In this document: one piece after another, positions 52,039-64,000 of the stretch
How the letters are laid out: each line of letters starts with the position of its first letter
Numbering within the stretch: position 1 is the first letter of the stretch
Position numbers and translations under genes: made by a program
The notes under the pieces: generated by a model
Seen by the model: only the letters and a program-made list of their open reading frames with translations
The model's database searches: none
Told to the model about the DNA's origin: nothing
Source of the DNA: Spongilla lacustris
Taxonomy: Eukaryota > Porifera > Demospongiae > Spongillida > Spongillidae
Reading direction: 5' to 3'
DNA length: 64,000 bases
Assembly: GCA_949361645.1 (NCBI GenBank)
Contig: OX442432.1
Coordinates: forward strand, 4,715,990 to 4,779,989

Positions 52039-54035
52039 TTATTTATACACAAGTGGTTCAATCTGTAGTGTAGCATACATAGCGGGGTACTGGGCTTGCT
52101 CACTGCATCTCTTTGGACTCTCATAAGCCATTACAGGTACTTCATAGTCTGCTTGATCCATAGCAGCTGGCTCATAGATGGTGTTGTGCAAATCCATCAG
52201 CACTGGTGCCTCGGGCATGTGAGCTGTACCCATTGCATTTTGGTCATATACAGGATTCTCTGCATTGCCAAGGGACCGGGCATTAGGTCCACCTGAGAAA
52301 GGAGCGAGTTGGCCGAAAGATTCACTTGCTGTACCACACCCACCTCTGTGCTTCTTACTCCTCTTGTGAACTATGTACCCTGCAATGATGATGGCCCCCA
52401 CAGCCACGAGGGTCACCATGACAACCAGAGGGACCACCACCCCTGCAATCACAGCCGTAACTTGATTCCTTATTGTCACCATATCACTTGTAGGTGTAGT
52501 AGAAAGTGCAGTAGTAGGAAGTGCAGTAGTAGGAAGTGCAGTAGTAGAAAGTGCAGTAGTAGGAAGTGCAGTAGTAGGAAGTGCAGTAGTAGAAAGTGCA
52601 GTAGTAGGAAGTGCAGTAGTAGGAAGTGCAGTAGTAGAAAGTGCAGTAGTAGGAAGTGCAGTAGTAGGAAGTGCAGTAGTAGGAAGTGCAGTAGTAGAAA
52701 GTGCAGTAGTAGGAAGTGCAGTAGTAGGAAGTGCAGTAGTAGAAAGTGCAGTAGTAGGAAGTGCAGTAGTAGGAAGTGCAGTAGTAGGAAGTGCAGTAGT
52801 AGGAAGTGCAGTAGTAGGAAGTGCAGTAGTAGGAAGTGCAGTAGTAGGAAGTGCACTAGTAGGAAGTGCAGTAGTAGGAAGTGCAGTAGTAGAAAGTGCA
52901 GTAGTAGGAAGTGCAGTAGTAGGAAGTGCAGTAGTAGGAAGTGCAGTAGTAGGAAGTGCAGTAGTAGGAAGTGCAGTAGTAGGAAGTGCAGTAGTAGGAA
53001 GTGCAGTAGTAGGAAGTGCAGTAGTAGGAAGTGCAGTAGTAGGAAGTGCAGCAGTAGGAAGTGCAGTAGTATGACGTGCAGTAGTATGATGTGTAGTAGG
53101 AAGTGCAGTAGTAGGAAGTGCAGTAGTAGGAAGTGCAGTAGTAGGAAGTGCAGTAGTAGGAAGTGCAGTAGTAGGAAGTGCAGTAGTAGAAAGTGCAGTA
53201 GTAGAAAGTGCAGTAGTAGGAAGTGCAGTAGTAGGAAGTGCAGTAGTAGGAAGTGCAGTAGTAGGAAGTGCAGTAGTAGGAAGTGCAGTAGTAGAAAGTG
53301 CAGTAGTAGGAAGTGCAGTAGTAGGAAGTGCAGTAGTAGGAAGTGCAGTAGTAGGAAGTGCAGTAGTAGGAAGTGCAGTAGTAGGAAGTGCAGTAGTAGG
53401 AAGTGCAGTAGTAGGAAGTGCAGTAGTAGGAAGTGCAGTAGTATGACGTGCAGTAGTATGATGTGTAGTAGGAAGTGCAGTAGTAGGAAGTGCAGTAGTA
53501 GGAAGTGCAGTAGTAGGAAGTGCAGTAGTAGGAAGTGCAGTAGTAGGAAGTGCAGTAGTAGAAAGTGCAGTAGTAGGAAGTGCAGTAGTAGGAAGTGCAG
53601 TAGTAGGAAGTGCAGTAGTAGGAAGTGCAGTAGTAGGAAGTGCAGTAGTAGGAAGTGCAGTAGTAGGAAGTGCAGTAGTAGGAAGTGCAGTAGTAGGAAG
53701 TGCAGTAGTAGGAAGTGCAGTAGTAGGAAGTGCAGTAGTATGAAGTGCAGTAGTATGACGTGCAGTAGTATGATGTGTAGTAGGAAGTGCAGTAGTAGGA
53801 AGTGCAGTAGTAGGAAGTGCAGTAGTAGGAAGTGCAGTAGTAGGAAGTGCAGTAGTATGACGTGCAGTAGTATGATGTGTAGTAGGAAGTGCAGTAGTAG
53901 GAAGTGCAGTAGTAGGAAGTGCAGTAGTAGGAAGTGCAGTAGTAGGAAGTGCAGTAGTAGGAAGTGCAGTAGTAGGAAGTGCAGTAGTAGGAAGTGCAGT
54001 AGTAGGAAGTGCAGTGGTAGGAAGTGCAGTAGTAG
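52039..54035 (-). CDS. Single-pass membrane protein with mucin-like (Ala-Leu-Pro-Thr-Thr)n stalk and tyrosine-rich tail; 5' end lost to a retrotransposon
   Basis: The reading frame of the C-terminal part (stop at 52039) runs upstream without a stop into the minisatellite, where it reads A-L-P-T-T about 100 times (sometimes A-L-S-T-T). Thr/Pro-rich tandem repeats of this kind are typical heavily O-glycosylated mucin stalks. After the stalk come TPTSDMVTIRNQ, one membrane helix (VTAVIAGVVVPLVVMVTLVA and following) and a basic stop-transfer (HKRSKKHRGG). The tail has about 110 residues with Tyr motifs: NPVYDQ (NPxY), NTIYEP, ADYEVP, AMYATL and PLVYK, which are candidate phosphotyrosine or SH2/PTB sites. 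Upstream of 54035 the frame enters a retrotransposon LTR, so signal peptide and N-terminal domains are missing here. It is either a truncated pseudogene or continues by splicing across the insertion. It is a candidate adhesion or immune-type receptor; the family is unknown. Confidence 0.72.
52495..54035. repeat. 15-bp coding minisatellite, about 100 copies, with higher-order structure
   Basis: Plus-strand unit GTAGTAGGAAGTGCA. Common variants are GTAGTAGAAAGTGCA (Pro to Ser) and a block TATGACGTGCAGTAGTATGA followed by TGTGTAGTAGG. That block recurs four times (about 53070, 53445, 53755 and 53865) and includes a 3-bp loss, so the frame is kept. All three minus frames stay open, giving L-L-L-H-F and C-T-S-Y-Y shadows. 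Only the A-L-P-T-T frame joins the membrane-helix exon. Confidence 0.95.
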
Positions 54036-54181
54036 TGTAACGAGATAGCGTGGCAGCAACTTAATAGCAGCAGGTTTACAAGTATAGAACTGACCAACAC
54101 CGAAGAAAATATAGACTATATATGCACAAGCAGTCTGTCACCTGATTCCATGGGTTCAGTGCGCAAGCGCGTACTCTTTAC
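54036..54181 (-). mobile_element. Short LTR of the Ty3/gypsy element (3' LTR, 146 bp)
   Basis: On the minus strand it begins TGTAAAGAGTACGCG and ends CTATCTCGTTACA (TG...CA, with TGTAA/TTACA ends). It is preceded by a purine-rich AAAAGAGGGAG polypurine-tract-like segment just after the element's stop codon. TATATAG near the middle is a possible TATA box. Its outer end directly abuts the 15-bp repeat. No second LTR is in view because the element is 5' truncated. Confidence 0.75.
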
Positions 54182-54195
54182 ACTACTCCCTCTTT

Positions 54196-55140
54196 TCAAT
54201 TAATGAGCGATGAAAGGCCCATAGAAGTCTGTTTCCGTACACGGTTTGGATACCGCTTTGGAACCGGTACCATTCTCCTGTGGTCCTCTGGCACCGGTGC
54301 AGGCTCGGGAATTTCTGCGTGCCTTATCCCCGGATCAGGTTCGGGTACATGTAGGTCAATTTCTGGAGGCGGGGCTGCCAAATAATCATCATCATCCAGA
54401 AGCTGCAATCTTCTGCTTGTATGTTGTTCCTCCACTTGATGGGCTGCCTCCCCACCATCATCATTGCTGTCACGCTGTACCGTGCTATCGCCTTCTTGGT
54501 CCAGCCTGATCTTCGCTGGGCAAGGTTTAAGCCTATCAAAATGCACTAAATGCGTTTTTGTGCCCCGTATTCCTTTGATCTTATAAGTGCTGTTGCCGAT
54601 CCGCTCTACCACCTTGAATGGCCCCTTCCAGGGACAATGTAACTTCCGAGACAACCCTCGAGGTACAGCAGGAGAATGCAACCAGACAAGATCGCCTTGA
54701 TTGAAGGGTGCCCCGTGAATCTTTTCATCGTATATAGCCTTCTGTCGTTTGTGTTCGGTCACGCATCTGTCCCTCACTAGTCGATAAGAACTTTGTAGGT
54801 CTTCTTTCAACCTCTGCACATACTCTAGGACTGGAACTTCCTCAATTTTACTGCTACCATACATCAGATCAACCGGAAGCTTCACCTGTCGACCAAACAT
54901 CAGAAAGAATGGACTAAACCCTGTCGATGCGTGAACGCTTGAATTATACGCCAGGCAAACCCTGCGTATATTCTGCTCCCAATTAGAAGGATGCTTTCCC
55001 ACTGTTGTTGATAACATATCCAGCAGAGTTCGATTAAATCGTTCCACCATCCCGTTGCCCTGTGGGTGGTACGGCGTAGTGTGGGTCTTCTTTACCCCAA
55101 GAATATTGCATATCTCCTTCACCAGTGCAGATTCAAATTG
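54196..55140 (-). mobile_element. Ty3/gypsy retrotransposon, 3' fragment of pol (integrase C-terminal half)
   Basis: A single open frame encodes the end of the integrase core (TTPYHPQGNGMVERFNRTLL, with the third catalytic acidic residue), the NSSVHASTGFSPF segment and a GPF-type motif (CPWKGPFKVVERIG). A variable Pro/Asp/Glu-rich tail follows to the stop at 54196. Protease, reverse transcriptase, RNase H and the first catalytic Asp residues are absent. Homology stops abruptly at about 55140, next to CGGTCC-rich palindromic DNA, so the copy is 5' truncated and cannot be autonomous. It is unrelated in detail to the integrase gene at 59152-61439. Confidence 0.9.
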
Positions 55141-55330
55141 CCGGTGTCATAGGGTATACGGTCCGGCCCAATTTTCGGTCCGGCGGACCGTATTCCCTTA
55201 GGGAATACGGTCCCCCCCGGACCCAACTCCCTAGGGAATACGGTCCGTCTAAAAGATTGTACATCCAGGGAATACAGTCCGGGGGAGGAGGCGGACTCAA
55301 TTCCCTGACAGAATGGAGATTTGATTTTGA
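55141..55330. repeat. CGGTCC/GGGAATAC palindromic repeat cluster at the gypsy breakpoint
   Basis: GGTATACGGTCC, CGGTCCGGCGGACCG (palindrome) and CCCTTAGGGAATACGGTCC, CCTAGGGAATACGGTCCG and CAGGGAATACAGTCCGGG recur within 150 bp. GC content is higher than in its surroundings. It is probably part of a separate short element into which, or beside which, the gypsy copy was truncated. Confidence 0.65.
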
Positions 55331-55337
55331 CGACCCA

Positions 55338-55534
55338 GTTTATAGCGTGTATAATTAAAAAGAGAAATCCACCGAAATCGACGGACAGAAATTCTAATTG
55401 ATAATGAGCGTGTATAATTAAAAGGAGAAATCGATTTTATAGCGTGTCTAATTATAAAAAAGAGAAATCCACCGAAATCGACGGACAGAAATTCTAATTG
55501 ATTATGAACGTGTATAATTAAAAGGAGAAATCGA
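55338..55534. repeat. Two tandem copies of a roughly 98-bp unit
   Basis: Copy 1 is about 55338-55433 and copy 2 about 55434-55534. Shared text includes GAGAAATCCACCGAAATCGA, CGGACAGAAATTCTAATTGA and CGTGTATAATTAAAAGGAGA. A weaker partial copy (GGACAGAAGTTCTAATTGAT) follows at about 55600. Confidence 0.88.
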
Positions 55535-55970
55535 TTCTCGGCAACCGTTCTCGAAATCGCAACCGTTAAGGCAGACAATTATGAAAATAATTTAAACACA
55601 GGACAGAAGTTCTAATTGATAATGTTATATAATGAAAGACAGAAGTTATTTAATGAAATCAAGACAAGTTCCTTCACGACATTAGATGTTTAATGTAATG
55701 AATAGCTGATTGTTCGTACGATGTTTCTGGACTGTGGTTCATCCTTTGCAGGAGCGTGATCATTAGCTACAATGCAAAGAATACCTAGATTACTATTTGT
55801 CACCTCAAATGATTTTGACATCCTTTACCTCAGGGTAGAGGACATCCCAAGCAAGGGTATTTGCTTGAGGGCCCCTAAAACCTTCATCTATTGCAATCCC
55901 GAACAAGAAGTGTTGGACTGCCTCTACCTGTGCGATAAAAAATATATAAGAATTTTTACACCATCTTACA

Positions 55971-58900
55971 CTAACGCACTACTAAGATATTATTGATTGG
56001 CCATCTTGAAAAATAGAGCTTCAAGTTCCGATTTTTTGCCTCAGGCAGTGCTGATAGTAATGGATAATAGGAGGCGCCAGTGCTTCTTTCTTCTGTTCTT
56101 GGCAGAAAGAGTGTTTGAAAGAATGATTTTGTTGTATACTGACATATTGTTCTTAAAAATTCCTTCAGGATAATATAGAATAATTTGTTGTATGCATTCT
56201 TTATAGGAAAACAAACCTCCTTTTCAGAGCATATTTGAACAATATCCTTCAATGTAATCTTCATGTCACTAAATCAAAATTGACAAGAATGTTAGTATCC
56301 ACACAGTATAGGCTTACTTGTTGACATAGGGTGGGATTTTCCCTGCCTTCCACAATTTCAGTTTTTTTGCATGATTTTCATAGAAGCACCTCTCTGGCAG
56401 GGGTTCCACTGGGTTCACTTCTGGAATTGGTTGTCTAAAACTGGGTACTAAATCTTTATATGTATAACTGTGTGCTGCTTTGGAGAACCAAAAACAATGA
56501 TGATAATAGTAACTACTGGCATGTTTTAAATATTGTTTTGCTTACTGTGTACTTCCTCACACTTTGTAGGATAAGGCAAGCCACTTTGCACTCCTTCACA
56601 CATGGAGACAAGCTGCTGATCCAATACCTGCATGTGTGTCAATGTTTCGAAACCAAAAGATGTATTTTAATCATTTGGGTGCTATTCACCTTCTGAAGAG
56701 CTGTAGTGATATCTGAAGTTGCAAGCATGGCTGTAAGCATCATATTTTGAACAGCCTTATGATTAAAATATGTGACATGTGGGCTGTTGGGGTTGAATGT
56801 GTGTTAGTACAATTATTACTTGTGTGCTTTATAGCTTACCTTTCAACAAGCCATTTTGCCAGCCAAGACCGAAGCTCAGAACTGTCTGTCTGTAAAATTA
56901 AATATTGTGAGTTTAGAATAACAACATTAAGCTTGCAAAATAACACTCACAGTAAATTTCAAAGGCAAACTCTCTGCTACACACTGACCGATCTAGGTAA
57001 GAAAATTTTTACATCACATTCTGACTTGTGGTATAATACAACCTTGCAAACAAATATGCCGCAGTCTGACTGATTCTTTTGCTTTATTTCTGGTGCCTAC
57101 ATGTATAATATGGCATTAACGTGATACAGCATTCACCCCGTGCACTCTGACATACATTATAAAGTGAAATGGTCCACAAAATTCCTTCTATTTCCCAATC
57201 CTCGCATAGTACACATTGCAGAAAGTAACTGATACAAAAAAACATTAAACAATACTTTTACCATTACTATTAAGATACCTGATTATTTGTACTGTTTTGC
57301 CTTGAATTGATTCAAAATACGAATCATATATTAGCACACATTTTGAAGAGACATCAATAACCTAAATGGAAACCATATACTATCAGGCACATACATTACA
57401 TGAATGAATTGAGGTGCATTAGACATACAGCAAGAAACCAGTGGCTTGGAATGTTACATAGCAGAAGAATGTAATCATATTCGCATATACCACTTTCCTA
57501 AAATAAAATAAAATGAAACAATTATATTATTGGAACAGTTTGCACTAAAACTGTGCTTCATTAATAATAATAATATTAATAAAGAGCAATTTTCATCTAA
57601 ACTGTCCAATTATAATTATATGTACCAAAATTCAAGGCTCACTTGGAAGATCTGTTTCAAATTGTGTTTGGAATATCCATTTTCCTCAGAAAGCTTAGTG
57701 TAAACGAATGAACTTAGGCATTTTATTCTTTTCCTGTCAGAATCAAACTATAAAAGAACACATTAAGTCAGTTAATATTGTACTGGGATGATGTGAGTGC
57801 TGGGATGGTATGAGTGTGTACTGGGATGGTGTGAGTATGTATTGGGATGATGTGTGTGCTGGGATGGTGTGGGTGTGTACTGGGATAGAGGCCTTGCAAG
57901 GTTACACATCCCACTATCACCTCCACCCTCCCCACCCTCACACTGCAGTTGGATGGCCAACGGACACGAAATGGCTTTATAACTGTTGGTGAGATGGAAC
58001 AGTGTGTCCATTACAAAGCCAGTGAGTATGTTGCCATGACAACTGGTGTCATCATGTGATAGCACACCTCATGGTGTTGACTTTTGTGCCCATCAGTTCA
58101 GCAAGATAAGATGAAGTTTCTGGTCATTGGGACACATTCTTACATTTACACTACCCTTTCCAAGAATATGAAAGAAGTAATTGATAATCTGTTGTAAAAT
58201 CGTTTTTTTTTTCAAAACAAGGAAACTCATACCATTTATTGGAATCACTCACACGATCACCAATCCATGCGCCTTTCAAAAGATCGATGAATTCAGAAGT
58301 AGTCACCCAAAAGGAATCTCCTGATTTCATCAGCATGTCTGTATAGACAGCAATTTGATTGGTGCAAAAATTTTTTTGCCACTGATTTATATAGAACTAC
58401 TAGTAAGAAACAAACCTTCTGATGAGGCTGTTAATACTTCAGATTTGTAATTGTGCCCTAGTAATACATTGATGAAGGTGATTTAAAAAAAAATAGTCCT
58501 ACCACTGTCGGCTGCATTGCCAGTCACTGATGTAGATGCACTACTGCATATCACCTCCTGTGCTGCACTTCTGAAATGTATCTTGTCTGATACTCTGGAC
58601 TGGGATGGAGCTAAGCTGTAAAAGTGGAATTCCATTTCACAACCTAGAAGCAATGTAGCATCACTTGTGGCAGAATCTTTCCATTGAGGAAATAGCCAAA
58701 ACATTGCTTGTTCTTCTGCTCTGCTGTTAGTGATAATGCAAAAGGTGACATCTAGCATTGTCGCTATTGCCTGAAGTTCTAGGTGTGTTCCCCATGTTCC
58801 GGGTTTAGCCATGTTGGAGATATATGCCTCCCATGTAGGAGCAGATGTAACAAAGCTGAATAGGTGGCTGCCATCAGGCTAAAATAAAGAACAAAAATGT

Positions 58901-59096
58901 AAGAAATGATTTAAATGTATCCACTTACTGTGTATGGGTTGCTGGTCATGAAGTCAACAACCTCTCTTCTCAAAATGATGTGACGCTTTCTCCTATGAAT
59001 TCTTAGCAATTGGTCACAAACTGCAGCAAACAAGCAGTTTCCATCGCCAGGCACATTTCGACGCAGTTCCAAATCAAAATTTCGAATGTTGTTCAT
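55971..59096 (-). CDS. Two-protease protein: OTU domain followed by Ulp1/SENP-like (C48) domain, intron-rich, transposon-associated
   Basis: OTU proteases remove ubiquitin; C48 proteases act on SUMO-like modifiers. Exons 1-8 (minus) are 59096-58929, 58878-58503, 58338-58233, 57733-57643, 57497-57429, 57361-57279, 57228-57156 and 57096-57043. All are GT-AG with compatible phases and give 340 codons. The OTU domain has VPGDGNCLFAAVCDQL (catalytic Asp and Cys), GTWGTHLELQAIA and EMEFHFYSL (catalytic His). The C48 domain has CNIPSHWFLAV (His), VIDVSSKCVLIYDS (Asp) and QKNQSDCGIFVCK (Gln and Cys). Further coding exons probably follow: a tiny one at 56971-56951 (SLPLKFT), then 56889-56840 (SSELRSWLAKWLVE), 56730-56690, 56627-56546, 56453-56318 and 56268-55971 (stop). 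The 56840-to-56730 junction does not close in phase, so the 3' third is provisional. The gene starts 56 bp after the integrase stop, on the same strand. All catalytic residues of both proteases are present. Confidence 0.82.
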
Positions 59097-59151
59097 TCAT
59101 GATGGGTTGGGAGTGACAGGAAGTAGCTGTTCTGGTGGGCTGGTAATGCTT

Positions 59152-61439
59152 TCAATACATTTCCCTGCTCATGTTATGATTATGGAACATGTCATATTTG
59201 CATCCATTGTCAATATATGGTAACAAACCATGCAGAGTAGAAGGACGACAGCTCTTAGATTTTATGTACTTCTTTATGTTCCTAATTGATTGTTTTGTCT
59301 TCAAGTTCTTTCCTTCATTATTGATCAGACCAACCTTGTATTGATTAAAATTGCATTCATACAAATTGAAATGCATGCACCGAAATTTACCTGGCCTTTG
59401 TCAGATATGCTTTTCACAGTAAAAGGCCCCAGATATTTTCTCGTGAGCTTTTCTCCCATTCGGCTTTCCTGTCGTCTATTGCGTACCAGAACTTTGTCCC
59501 CCACTGATACATGTGATTTGATATCAATTTTGCCTTTCCTCTTGAGATCAGTGGCTATCTGACTGGTTTGGGCTTTGGTTATGTTAGCTTTAACCTATAT
59601 ATGCCATGAAAATCGAACATGTGTCAGGAGAGCATTCAACTCTGCATTCAAATTGAACTAACCTGTTGTGTTATCTTGGATCGATGTAATAACATTTGCT
59701 GATGCATTTCATCTCTAGAACTGTCATCTGCTGGAACTGTGTGCTCTGACCTCATAACATGTTCTATTGGGAAAGTAACTTTTCTCCCATAGGCAACTTC
59801 GTACGGTGAAAATTTAGTAGATGACTGTGGAGAGGTCCGTATTGCAAACAAAACTGACTCAATTGATTGGTCCCACACATCCAAGCAATCATTCACACAC
59901 TTTTCCAGTGATCTGTTTATAAAAAGTCTGTTCAGTACAGTTGCAATAAGAATTAAAGGAAAGAGCATCATGCAGGTACCTTATTATTGTTTGGTTCATT
60001 CTTTCACATAATCCATTAGATTGTGGATGATAGGCTGACGTCATTCGATGATCGATTTCAAATTCCTTGCATAGGCAGTCAACAACCTGCATGGAAAGTT
60101 CATATACTTGTAACGCAAATACACTTTTCTGCAGCTTAGTGGAATGCGATCCAGAGTGTGTCATTTATATATATGGATTGAAGTGCTTAGAAATGTACAT
60201 CAATATAAGGATGGCATGGTGTGGGAACTTGGGGGGGTGTATGAAAGTGAAGCTGCATCTCAGGTGAGTGTGATCTGTGGAATGAGCTGTGCGTGACTGT
60301 GAGTACATATAATATTGGTGAAGTCGTGTCACTTAATCAAATGTTACCTCGTTGATAAACTCCCTGCCCTGGTCAGTGATTATGTCTGATGCTCCAAATC
60401 GACAGTACAAAGAGTACATAAAGTGTGCCACTGTTGTAGCTTCTTTGTTTTGCAATGGTGCAGCTTCTGGCCATTTCGAAAAGTAGTCCGTTGCAACAAT
60501 TATGTACCGATTTCCACGTGGTGTTAATGTTAGTGGACCAATCAAATCCACACCCCAGAGGTTCCACAGGCCAGTTATGGGGATGGGCTGCAATGGCAGG
60601 TGTGGGGCTTTGATTGAATGGTTGGTTCTTTGACATGAATCACATTCGGTCACCTGCATGGAAATTTTGTGCAGCAATCCAAACAGAGTATATACCTCTC
60701 ATACTTATGTTAACCACATGGGAAAGTTATCATAGTCCTTTTTCTAAGGCCTCACATTGACCGGTCTTAGGACCTCTGGTGCAATGTTTTGGGATGTGCT
60801 ACATTGTATATATAATGGTGTTCCGCATGCATATTGCATGTATATAGTTGTATTCATTTTGAATACAACACATATACAACATATACAAAACATTGCACAT
60901 CTTACGACTTATAATGCATGTACATGCACAGTATACGTGTATTATACAGTATATGTATGCATGCATGCACTTACCCAACGGCGTATGTCCAGATGCATGT
61001 GCGGCCAGTAGTAGTGCCTCAATTTATCTTCGGTGCGGTCTCTTCCCTGATGGCCTCCACTTTTGGACGCATGACATTCCGAAAACGCCTTTGTTCTATC
61101 TTCTTCTGTTAAAAGCACCACTCTTGCATCTTCGTTCTTCCCTCCCACATACAGCAGAACATCGTCGTGGCTTAGCGAGAAGTCTGTCGAACGCTTTCGT
61201 ATCAGCCGCTTCTCTGACTCTGTAGCGCATAATGGGTACGTCCTGTCCTTTAGATACGACTGTACCCACTTCAGCGTTTCTTCGCATCTTTTCTGTTTAA
61301 CGTATTCCTGCTGAAGTACATGTACATGCAATGTAATTTCTTAACCGACGCATGCACTGGAAAAGAAAACAATTCAGTGTTACATTTTAAGTAGAACAAT
61401 GAGTGCTCAGATTCAGACGTTCATAACATAACCTACCAT
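59152..61439 (-). CDS. Gypsy-type integrase/transposase gene with six introns (Ginger-like)
   Basis: Exons (minus): a possible 3-nt coding exon 61439-61437 (ATG directly before a GTAGGT donor), then 61310-60975, 60653-60348, 60086-59980, 59912-59663, 59594-59391 and 59334-59152 (stop). They total 1389 nt, 462 residues. All junctions are GT-AG and phase-compatible. In order: an H2C2 zinc-binding domain (ECHASKSGGHQGRDRT, then CDSCQR after an intron); the DDE core with WGVDLIGPLTL (first Asp), DIITDQGREFINE (second Asp) and AYHPQSNGLCERMNQTI (Glu); FSPYEVAYGR; and KYLGPFTVKSI, the GPY/F motif. No reverse transcriptase, protease or LTR lies around it. An intron-split integrase without pol fits a Ginger DNA-transposon transposase or a domesticated integrase gene. 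The start exon is the weakest part. Confidence 0.85.
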
Positions 61440-61555
61440 TCCACCGCCTTCTTGTTCTCAGTCTTAGTACGTTACGCGCATGCAGAACGTGTACCACATA
61501 TTAATTCACGATTTAGCTCGGCAATGCGTAGATTTTTTATTGGTGATGTAGGATT

Positions 61556-61643
61556 TGTAGGCACCAATTTACTAAAGGGATTTCGTATATTCTGGCAATT
61601 ATGAAATATTATTTGACAAATGCTATGCTTAATTGGTGCCTAC
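61556..61643. mobile_element. 88-bp inverted-repeat element with TGTAGGCACC ends
   Basis: TGTAGGCACCAATT at the left and AATTGGTGCCTACA at the right are perfect 14-bp inverted repeats around about 60 bp. ATT precedes the left end and follows the right end. The TGTNR-type terminus is compatible with Ginger ends, and the element lies just upstream of the integrase gene. It could be a MITE or a remnant end. Confidence 0.6.
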
Positions 61644-64000
61644 AATTCATACGTAACGAATTTTATACATTTCATCTCTCTCATAGTTTGTTTGTGAGTA
61701 CATTTTTATACGTGTATCAGTACATGAGTGCTAGCCAGCAATTACGATGGTTCATGTCGAACATATACATGTACTGACATGTGTGTACACTGGAACACAT
61801 GGTTGGGATTTCTTTTCATTTTGTAACCGAACACTATAGCTAGATGAACCAACATCGCTTGCGCGTCCTATAATACCAGTTCAGATACTACGACTAGATC
61901 TCCCCTGTCTGCTAGTATCGGTCAGGTAGGATCTTGATGCAACTGAACTAACAGTCATACTGTTGGAGTGGATCACTGAACCCCTAACTGTCCCCTGTAT
62001 AGATTCCTGAATCATGGGCGGGATAAACTGTATATGTCCTGAATCATGGGCGGGATAAACTGTATGGTGTGGTGCAAGGTGCCAATTAAAACTTGTTATT
62101 CGTACTTATAAGTGGTATAGAAGCCGTACTATGGTATGGGCAAAAAAAATTATTGAGCAATTCTATACATACCTCTGGAGGCATGGAAAAGAGAAGCGAG
62201 TAAGTTCTATACTGGCGCCGCGTGAGGATTGATATCGACGATTCGTAGCTGTATTAAATTATCACAGGTACAGGTAAGATTAAAATACTATTTGCAGTTT
62301 ATCGTTTCATGACCGTTACCCTCGTAGCGCTCTACTCAGTTTGGTCTATTAAACGCTCCTTCCTTACTCCGCAATCAATGAACAGACTACGGTGAACTGA
62401 CGAGTGTGTTGGTCACTTAGATTTCGCGATAACATGAATTGCTGTGTTTTCTGGCAGTCTAAGTCATGTTGCAAACCCATATACCAAGATATGTTCATCT
62501 GGTCCCATGCATGGGTACTAGTGATAGGGGGAGCTAGGATGTATAACTGTTCTTACAGTGTGTTTCAAAGGTGCATTCTTACTGATGCACAACTCTCGAG
62601 GAAACTGGTGACAATGTGTCTGTATTGGAGAGAATCTGTGTGTTAATGTAAGGTCAATGTACATGTATCATGTGTGTTTGCACTTACTCTCAGATGATAT
62701 ATATGTATTGCATTCTTATAGGGTGTAGATGCACACCTCTCCAAGGTGATTGGAGACCATGCATGTATTCTCAAAGGTCAATGTGCTTACACTTACCCTC
62801 AGATGACATACACCTGTATGTATATGCACCTCTAAGACAAGGTTTGGCGACTGTGTGTTTCTACTGGAGGGAATCAATTTTATTTAAGGTCAGTGTGTTT
62901 GCACTTACATAGGCATGTCTTTTCTTACCGCAAAATTACATGCACACAAAGACAAGCCAGACAGCTTAAAGACATGTGAGGATATATATAACAAAGAGAT
63001 GCTGTTCCTACAAGATATGTGAATTTTCGTTAAAACCTACTCAAAGACATCCAGCCCATACAACACCACCAAAACAGTAAGTTATTCCATTTTATTGTAA
63101 TCCTTAACTCCATTAGCATGGCTTTTATCATATACAGCAACCAGTAGCTATCTTGCTAATGCTATGTGTCTAATACACAGTGACACTCGAGACTAAAAAG
63201 ACACAGGACACACAAGCAATATTAACGGATGCCGCCAAGCTTATATTTGTCTGTGAAATTCACTTTTTGGCTGATTTTACAGGTACAAAATTGAGTACAC
63301 TCAATATATCAGCATGTCTTCAACAGCTAATTAAGTACCAAGTTGTTGAGGACCCATGCAGCTTAAAGCTATGTGTCCCTGTATCTCTTCTCACTTATCT
63401 TCTCATCTCCCTTCTTTTTCCTACCTACCTCCCCCTCTGCAGAAAATCTCTGGGCACACGAGCAGCGTTATTTGTCTGTGAAAGTCACTTTTTAATCATG
63501 TACATGATTGAAAATCACTTATGCATCAAAAACAATAATGGCTAGTGTACTAATTAACACTGCATGTTTATATTATAAAATCATAGTGCAAACAAAGTAG
63601 AAATAAAGATTAATGAAATAAAAATATATAATAGTGAACTGAACATAAGAGAGATGAGGGTACTGGATAAATCTCAATTTTGTAACTGTAAAAACTTGTT
63701 CATTGTGCTGCATGTTTAGTTGCCGACCTGCACGCGATCCTTTTCAAAATAAATGGAAACATATATAAGTAGTAACAAGTACAGACCGAAGAAAAAGGTT
63801 AATCAGTTTGTTACAGAAGCTGCATACATGTATATAGTTGGCGACCTGTGATCATTGTGGTTTTTGATTTTCGAACCCGATTTTCGAATTAACCAAATGT
63901 GCTGTTACAGACCGAATTGAAACTGCTTACATAGTTGACGACATACAGCTTTTGCTTTTCGAACCAAATTGTTACGTGCATGCAAGGGTAGGAAATATAT
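61644..64000. other. Repeat-bearing DNA without recognised genes
   Basis: At 62000-62067 a 34-bp unit (CCTGAATCATGGGCGGGATA and following) is duplicated. At about 62560-62910 three or four diverged copies of a roughly 100-bp unit recur (AAGGTCAATGTGCTTACACT, CTCAGATGA, ACTGGAGGGAATC). At 63230-63270 and 63460-63500 a segment reading TATTTGTCTGTGAAA(A/G)TCAC is repeated. Near the end a unit with GTTGGCGACCTG and TTTTCGAACC recurs at about 63838, 63880 and 63940. Open frames at 62404-62912 and 63180-63545 follow these repeats and encode nothing I recognise. Confidence 0.45.

Follow-up and report, generated by a model that had tools for sequence, protein, structure and literature searches.

A degraded Ginger1 DNA transposon in Spongilla lacustris, of a family whose transposase very probably carried both an OTU and a Ulp1/C48 protease

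Does a gypsy-type integrase that lies beside an OTU and a Ulp1-like C48 protease in the sponge Spongilla lacustris belong to a DNA transposon, to the Ty3/Gypsy retrotransposon adjoining it or to a host gene, and is it encoded together with the proteases or apart from them? These questions are raised by a stretch of 64,000 nucleotides (assembly GCA_949361645.1, contig OX442432.1, positions 4,715,990 to 4,779,989; hereafter the window, with positions counted from its first letter), for which the initial annotation had proposed two genes 56 bp apart, forming either an autonomous Ginger-like transposon or a domesticated derivative. The locus is a genuine Ginger1 DNA transposon copy, degraded, and not a host gene. 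Very probably it is the remains of a cut-and-paste element whose intact relatives encode one transposase made up of the integrase, an OTU domain, a Ulp1/SENP-like C48 domain and a C-terminal part.

The ends of the element were located by comparing repeat edges among genomic copies and then reading past the window. It occupies 55145..64207 (9,063 bp, minus strand; last 207 bp past the window end, read in sequence L049) and is bounded by terminal inverted repeats (TIRs) of 102 bp, identical at 102/102 positions and reading TGTCA...TGACA; its ends are inverted, not direct repeats. The left end reads CCGG followed by TGTCATAGGG, and similarity to other genomic copies begins there at about 55138-55141 in the copy comparison. 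CCGG is present on both flanks as a target-site duplication. A Ty3/Gypsy pol on the same strand surrounds the element, the insertion point falling inside its integrase open reading frame (ORF), and removal of the element together with one CCGG restores an unbroken Gypsy integrase frame across the joint. Because this frame reads through the empty site, transposition is directly evidenced, and a Gypsy reverse transcriptase (RT) is found near the locus because the element was inserted into the pol. The statement that no RT or long terminal repeat accompanies the integrase stands inside the element (no RT frame was seen among the ORFs of 55145-64000) and fails outside it, where the RT and integrase of the interrupted Gypsy adjoin on the same strand. 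The proposed check for TIRs had a similarly mixed outcome: TIRs and a 4-bp duplication exist, but a search in the flanks then indicated gave nothing convincing, the right end lying beyond the window. The element and its insertion site comprise the following features.

55141..55144, no strand: CCGG target-site duplication, left (right copy at 64208-64211, beyond the window)
55145..64000 in the window, minus strand: Ginger1 element (full extent 55145..64207)
55145..55246, no strand: TIR, left end, 102 bp (the right end at 64106-64207, read in L049, has the same sequence)
54196..55144, minus strand: interrupted Ty3/Gypsy pol, 3' part (integrase end); the remainder continues past the right end of the element

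RT and integrase frames of this pol are seen in window 54196-55144 and in L049 from base 298 on. The TIRs of all three element families treated below are rich in short palindromes with GGTCC or ATTCC centres (window 55174-55250 and the ends of L050-L053), where hairpins would be possible.

Exons on the minus strand of the element match PF17921 (60.4 bits), PF00665 (43.9 bits), PF02338 (OTU; 53.4 bits) and PF02902 (Peptidase_C48; 43.5 bits), all above the cut-offs; by reading, the integrase D-D-E and GPF, OTU D-G-N-C...H and C48 H-D-Q-C residues are all present. The gypsy-type integrase with zinc finger and the two protease domains with catalytic residues had been recognized correctly. Joined over predicted splice sites, 22 coding segments make up a single frame of 1,058 codons, interrupted once by a stop (TGA, 59097-59099); the window copy counts 21 exons, since the linker remnant and exon G abut at a deletion. 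Ahead of the zinc finger, exon A contains TYP...DF...LLY, which agrees with Y/F-P-Y/F-Y/F as judged by eye and not by alignment to the published YPYY motif. Among solved structures, the OTU part is closest in sequence to OTUD3 and OTUD5, and the C48 part to SENP1, Ulp1 and SENP2. The C-terminal part (exons P-T) has no Pfam match; for exon T, each of four elements of families 2 and 3 has a stretch of 55-74% identity. A single terminal exon reaching 55971 was tried and dropped; exon T (55805-55927) matches an Ephydatia muelleri gene model as well as families 2 and 3. The span first assigned, 55971..61439, proved too short at both ends, the last coding exon ending at 55805 and the element running from 55145 to 64207. 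A further exon (ATG at 61958), probably the first, has its match in an Ephydatia gene model; its frame is broken toward exon A in the window copy, a mismatch common to sibling copy C11 and apparently C13. The coding features are given below.

61877..61958, minus strand: probable first coding exon (MTVSSVASRSYLTDTSR...), out of frame with exon A; end inferred from the E. muelleri model
60975..61307, minus strand: exon A, beginning of the H2C2 finger, with a YPYY-like motif
60348..60653, minus strand: exon B, remainder of H2C2 and the first two catalytic D residues of the integrase
59980..60086, minus strand: exon C, catalytic E (NGLCERMNQT)
59663..59912, minus strand: exon D, integrase C-terminal part
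59391..59594, minus strand: exon E, GPF motif
59225..59334, minus strand: exon F, end of the integrase part; donor choice uncertain
59097..59148, minus strand: what is left of the PEQLLPVT-repeat linker exon, with TGA (59097-59099) closing it at the deletion junction; abuts exon G
58929..59096, minus strand: exon G, OTU, Asp-Gly-Asn-Cys
58503..58878, minus strand: exon H, OTU, catalytic His region
56840..58338, minus strand: exons I-O, Ulp1/C48 protease with H, D, Q and C (58253-58338, 57643-57747, 57429-57497, 57279-57361, 57156-57228, 56989-57096, 56840-56889)
55805..56783, minus strand: exons P-T, C-terminal part; other families have counterparts of R, S2 and T (56690-56783, 56546-56627, 56318-56477, 56217-56268, 55980-56162, 55805-55927)
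57781..58131, no strand: about 350 bp in the I-J intron, absent from siblings C13, C12 and C11, holding a 17-38-bp tandem repeat

Whether integrase and proteases are one gene or two turns on the 56-bp gap between their frames. Siblings C13, C12 and C11 carry about 370 bp more at this point, containing a PEQLLPVT-repeat exon as well as other segments that have splice signals at their borders and lead into the OTU frame; since all three have this sequence, the gap is a deletion junction, and the "two genes" are one transposase gene split by a deletion of about 370 bp that left an in-frame stop. The E. muelleri model Em0023g876a likewise runs from integrase through the same linker into OTU and C48 within one protein. 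That the transposon encodes the two frames independently, as distinct genes or in a bicistronic unit with the 56 bp as a true intergenic spacer, is improbable: the integrase frame of the window copy does stop ahead of an ATG that opens the OTU frame, and splicing from integrase to OTU is read from predicted exons, but the three siblings lack that junction and have splice sites and the repeat exon in its place, and the Ephydatia model continues across it.

Both proteases are also present together in two further families. Family 2 (L050, 5,819 bp; L053, 5,924 bp) and family 3 (L051, 6,168 bp; L052, 6,177 bp) have TGTCA ends, TIRs and CCGG on both sides in 4/4 fetched elements, and in all four the integrase, OTU and C48 of the window are matched in the same order; three diverged families of one genome hence carry OTU and C48 in TIR/CCGG elements. 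In a scripted comparison of best-fitting exons, limited to the phases of the window's exons, exon lengths equalled those of the window for exon K (69 nt in 4/4 elements), exon L (83 nt in 3/4; 95 in L053) and exon O (50 nt in 3/4). OTU D18, N20, C21 and H141 and C48 H264, D281, Q326 and C332 (window-cassette numbering) are invariant in the three family sequences, that of family 2 being a composite; single copies vary, C13 having GDGNS for GDGNC and L053 GDGIF. Between families, OTU and C48 differ at a proportion of 0.25-0.31 of nonsynonymous sites (pN) as against 0.75-0.94 of synonymous sites (pS), the latter saturated; as judged from these values, both domains are under purifying selection across the three families. 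The protease pair characterises the family, and we infer that the transposase would comprise an H2C2-DDE-GPF integrase, OTU, Ulp1/C48 and a conserved C-terminal part in more than 20 exons.

The Ginger-like nature of the locus, proposed at the outset, is upheld by its TIRs with TGTNR ends, CCGG, the empty site, the many copies and the grouping of its integrase with RT-less proteins. In the 248.6-Mb genome, a 21-base end pattern allowing up to 3 mismatches gave 159 + 175 = 334 matches, as against 1 + 1 = 2 for the reversed pattern used as control, which substantiates the expectation of other genomic copies. Exactly CCGG lay outside 86 of the first 100 listed ends, all 100 of them exact, and 24 plus-strand ends among these had a minus-strand end 2.9-9.1 kb further along (both hand counts). 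Many copies have common internal gaps relative to the window sequence, as would be expected of non-autonomous deletion derivatives. Relatives of window 56065-57617 (e.g. G000:C3:6363980-6369809) likewise have common internal gaps with both ends kept, and they are probably an amplified non-autonomous subfamily. OTU followed by C48 was found in order at 18 loci among 55 OTU and 55 C48 loci (clustered), 37 of each being without this pairing; the 18 are a lower bound, as the queries came from the family of the window. At some unpaired loci the partner domain is merely below threshold (the C48 of L050 was found by direct comparison); others are probably deletion derivatives.

The integrase and the OTU-C48-C-terminal cassette appear to have different histories. 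The integrase of the window is 62.8% identical to that of family 2 and 39.8% to that of family 3; for the cassette the corresponding values, like the preceding ones from family 2 and 3 sequences that are partly composite, are 52.4/57.1 for OTU, 48.6/59.0 for C48 exons J-L and 63.8/63.3 for exon R. In family 3 the integrase match of L052 is not interrupted at the A|B, B|C and C|D introns common to families 1 (that of the window) and 2, and L051 has inserts elsewhere. A quick integrase tree of 67 rows (64 of 120 listed proteins, hand-picked, with the window and families 2 and 3; support by the SH-like approximate likelihood ratio test, SH-aLRT, only; published Repbase Ginger1 sequences not among the rows) separated 52 RT-less rows, including the window, from all 14 RT rows with SH-aLRT 97; P0014 (PF17919/PF17917), labelled RT-less beforehand, places among the RT rows. 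The window family pairs with family 2 as its sister (100), and family 3 stands elsewhere among the RT-less rows, outside a group of 41 rows at 95. In a 24-row OTU tree the OTUs of the three double-protease families cluster as one clade (100/100), separated by a very long branch (3.55 changes per column) from 21 OTU-only Ginger1-like OTUs, and a profile of the double-protease C48 scores just 8.8-20.6 bits on six C48-only proteins. Because the cassette is about equally similar among the three families while one integrase is far more distant, these comparisons suggest, with moderate confidence, that it was combined as a unit with at least two integrase lineages (module exchange). An alternative, unlikely though it deserves consideration, is that the OTU-C48 cassette was ancestral to Ginger1, rates being unequal, and that one or both proteases were lost in other lineages. 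OTU-only and C48-only proteins do both occur, and the separate placement of the family 3 integrase would fit; the great distance of the double-protease OTU from the OTU-only ones, the weak scores of its C48 profile on C48-only proteins and the likeness of the cassette among families with distant integrases speak against it.

Several observations weigh against one double-protease transposase and against exchange of the cassette between lineages. The splice sites are predicted ones, picked by reading so as to avoid breaks in the frame. Among the window copy and the four siblings examined, none proved intact over all exons: C13, C12, C11 and C1 are each damaged or incomplete through stops, frameshifts, deletions or missing exons, and the description of the window copy as autonomous has to be withdrawn in view of its internal stop and probable 5' frameshift. 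Em0023g876a falls below the cut-offs for OTU (20.0 bits against 23.3) and rve (29.3 against 32.6), because the model skips exons, including that of the catalytic E; a second model, Em0006g1085a, has integrase and C48 with the OTU match absent. The window-phase script returned no counterparts of exons M, P and Q in the four family 2/3 elements, none of exon H in L051 and L052 and none of exon J in L051. Finally, an approximately unbiased (AU) test did not reject a single clade for all four double-protease integrase rows (p = 0.101).

Two other origins of the locus carry very little weight. A domesticated, Ginger1-derived host gene akin to Gin-1/Gin-2 would account for the intron-rich structure, Gin genes having six to eight introns in the available part of PMC2836005, and is highly improbable in view of the perfect TIRs, the target duplication, the insertion into a Gypsy pol, the hundreds of related ends and the several broken siblings; such a gene has no flanking TIRs and belongs to no repeat family, unlike this TIR-bounded, multi-copy insertion within another transposon, and the idea of a domesticated derivative is given up. 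Still closer to negligible is the reading that the integrase belongs to a Gypsy retrotransposon with the proteases as chance neighbours. It draws on the Ty3/Gypsy pol with RT directly beside the element on the same strand, yet this pol has an integrase of its own, interrupted by the element and readable over the empty site, and the window integrase groups with the RT-less proteins at SH-aLRT 97.

Compared with Ginger1 as given in the accessible passages of its founding paper (PMC2836005; Bao, Kapitonov and Jurka 2010), the element agrees in its H2C2, DDE and GPY/F integrase, its TGTNR ends, its 4-bp CCGG duplication (CCGG or CCGT in that paper), its C-terminal protease domain of OTU or Ulp1 type and its TIR length (102 bp, within 40-270 bp); a YPYY-like motif, judged by eye, may be a further point in common. 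It differs in carrying both OTU and Ulp1 in one transposase, which those passages describe as occurring "but not both", as an observation on the families treated and not as a group criterion; in about 20 introns as against 0-4 in the table of that paper; and in a length of 9.1 kb as against 2.6-7 kb. Unlike Ginger2/TDD (AT-rich RTATAY target, no GPY/F), it has a CCGG target and a GPF motif. The closest among the protein matches listed are E. muelleri models, assigned to that species by their Em prefix (95-96% identical within the best local alignment, which spans 21% of the query); Em0023g876a and Em0006g1085a are of the same family as the window element, both skipping exons and neither labelled as transposon. 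Further E. muelleri proteins matched by the cassette profile are P0121, with an H2C2 finger (PF17921), and P0122, with an OTU domain; they suggest additional such families or copies in that sponge. The cassette searches gave 2 and 5 proteins, with P0123 (OTU only) the sole one not tied to Ephydatia. PF02338 and PF02902 did not occur together in the precomputed domains of the best 120 of 383 protein matches (domains of P0058 incompletely shown), and no double-protease relative outside sponges was seen in the protein searches, which depend on shared 5-residue words and miss distant relatives. The sea-urchin (Strongylocentrotus purpuratus) protein LOC100889000 (P0003) joins a Ginger-like H2C2 and rve integrase to UCH (85.7 bits), not to OTU or C48; UCH may represent a third type of ubiquitin protease acquired by the Ginger-like group.

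Ulp1 domains occur also in plant Mutator-like elements (MULEs), whose transposase we take to be unrelated to the Ginger1-type integrase. Those MULEs (KAONASHI / KIU-type Vandal) resemble the window element in that a transposon protein has captured a Ulp1 domain, and they differ from it in that OTU is unmentioned in the passages available of PMC13317346; according to the same passages, KIU-carrying Vandals induce hypomethylation of related copies, the function of the Ulp1 part being unknown. A literature search, covering sources other than Repbase and subscription papers and these in part, found no report of a Ginger element with both domains; term look-ups in the main texts of PMC12863088 and PMC10045372 found no mention of OTU, Ulp1 or protease.

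Outside the element, window 52039-54060 (minus strand) holds a 673-aa open frame in which a 15-bp tandem repeat (TTALP units) recurs about 100 times ahead of a hydrophobic stretch, which gives it the appearance of a mucin-like membrane protein.

Integrases of the gypsy type attach paired ends to target DNA at a constant stagger. By this chemistry the integrase part of the transposase would bind the TGTCA ends and insert them at CCGG with a 4-bp stagger, and the single polypeptide would bring OTU and SENP-like activities to the element ends. The proteases may have been kept since the transposase has to remove ubiquitin and SUMO at its site of action, whether these are carried by the transposase itself, by repair proteins during transposition or by silencing complexes on element chromatin; the effect could be to stabilise the transposase, to steer repair or to relieve silencing, and the data do not separate these. 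An anti-silencing role of OTU and C48 would be one such effect, argued here from sequence. A more specific proposal, of low probability, is that the OTU-SENP cassette of about 600 aa with its own introns is a dedicated counter-silencing module passed between integrase lineages of DNA transposons, where it would recognise a ubiquitin/SUMO-marked silencing complex and remove both marks; if true, the same module would profit distantly related transposases.

The double-protease transposase runs counter to the published observation of OTU or Ulp1 but not both in Ginger1, and adds to this group a sponge subgroup with an unusually long, intron-rich transposase gene. Two ubiquitin-type proteases are retained together under purifying selection in three transposon families, and why transposons should encode deubiquitinase- and deSUMOylase-like domains, an old question, becomes testable domain by domain.

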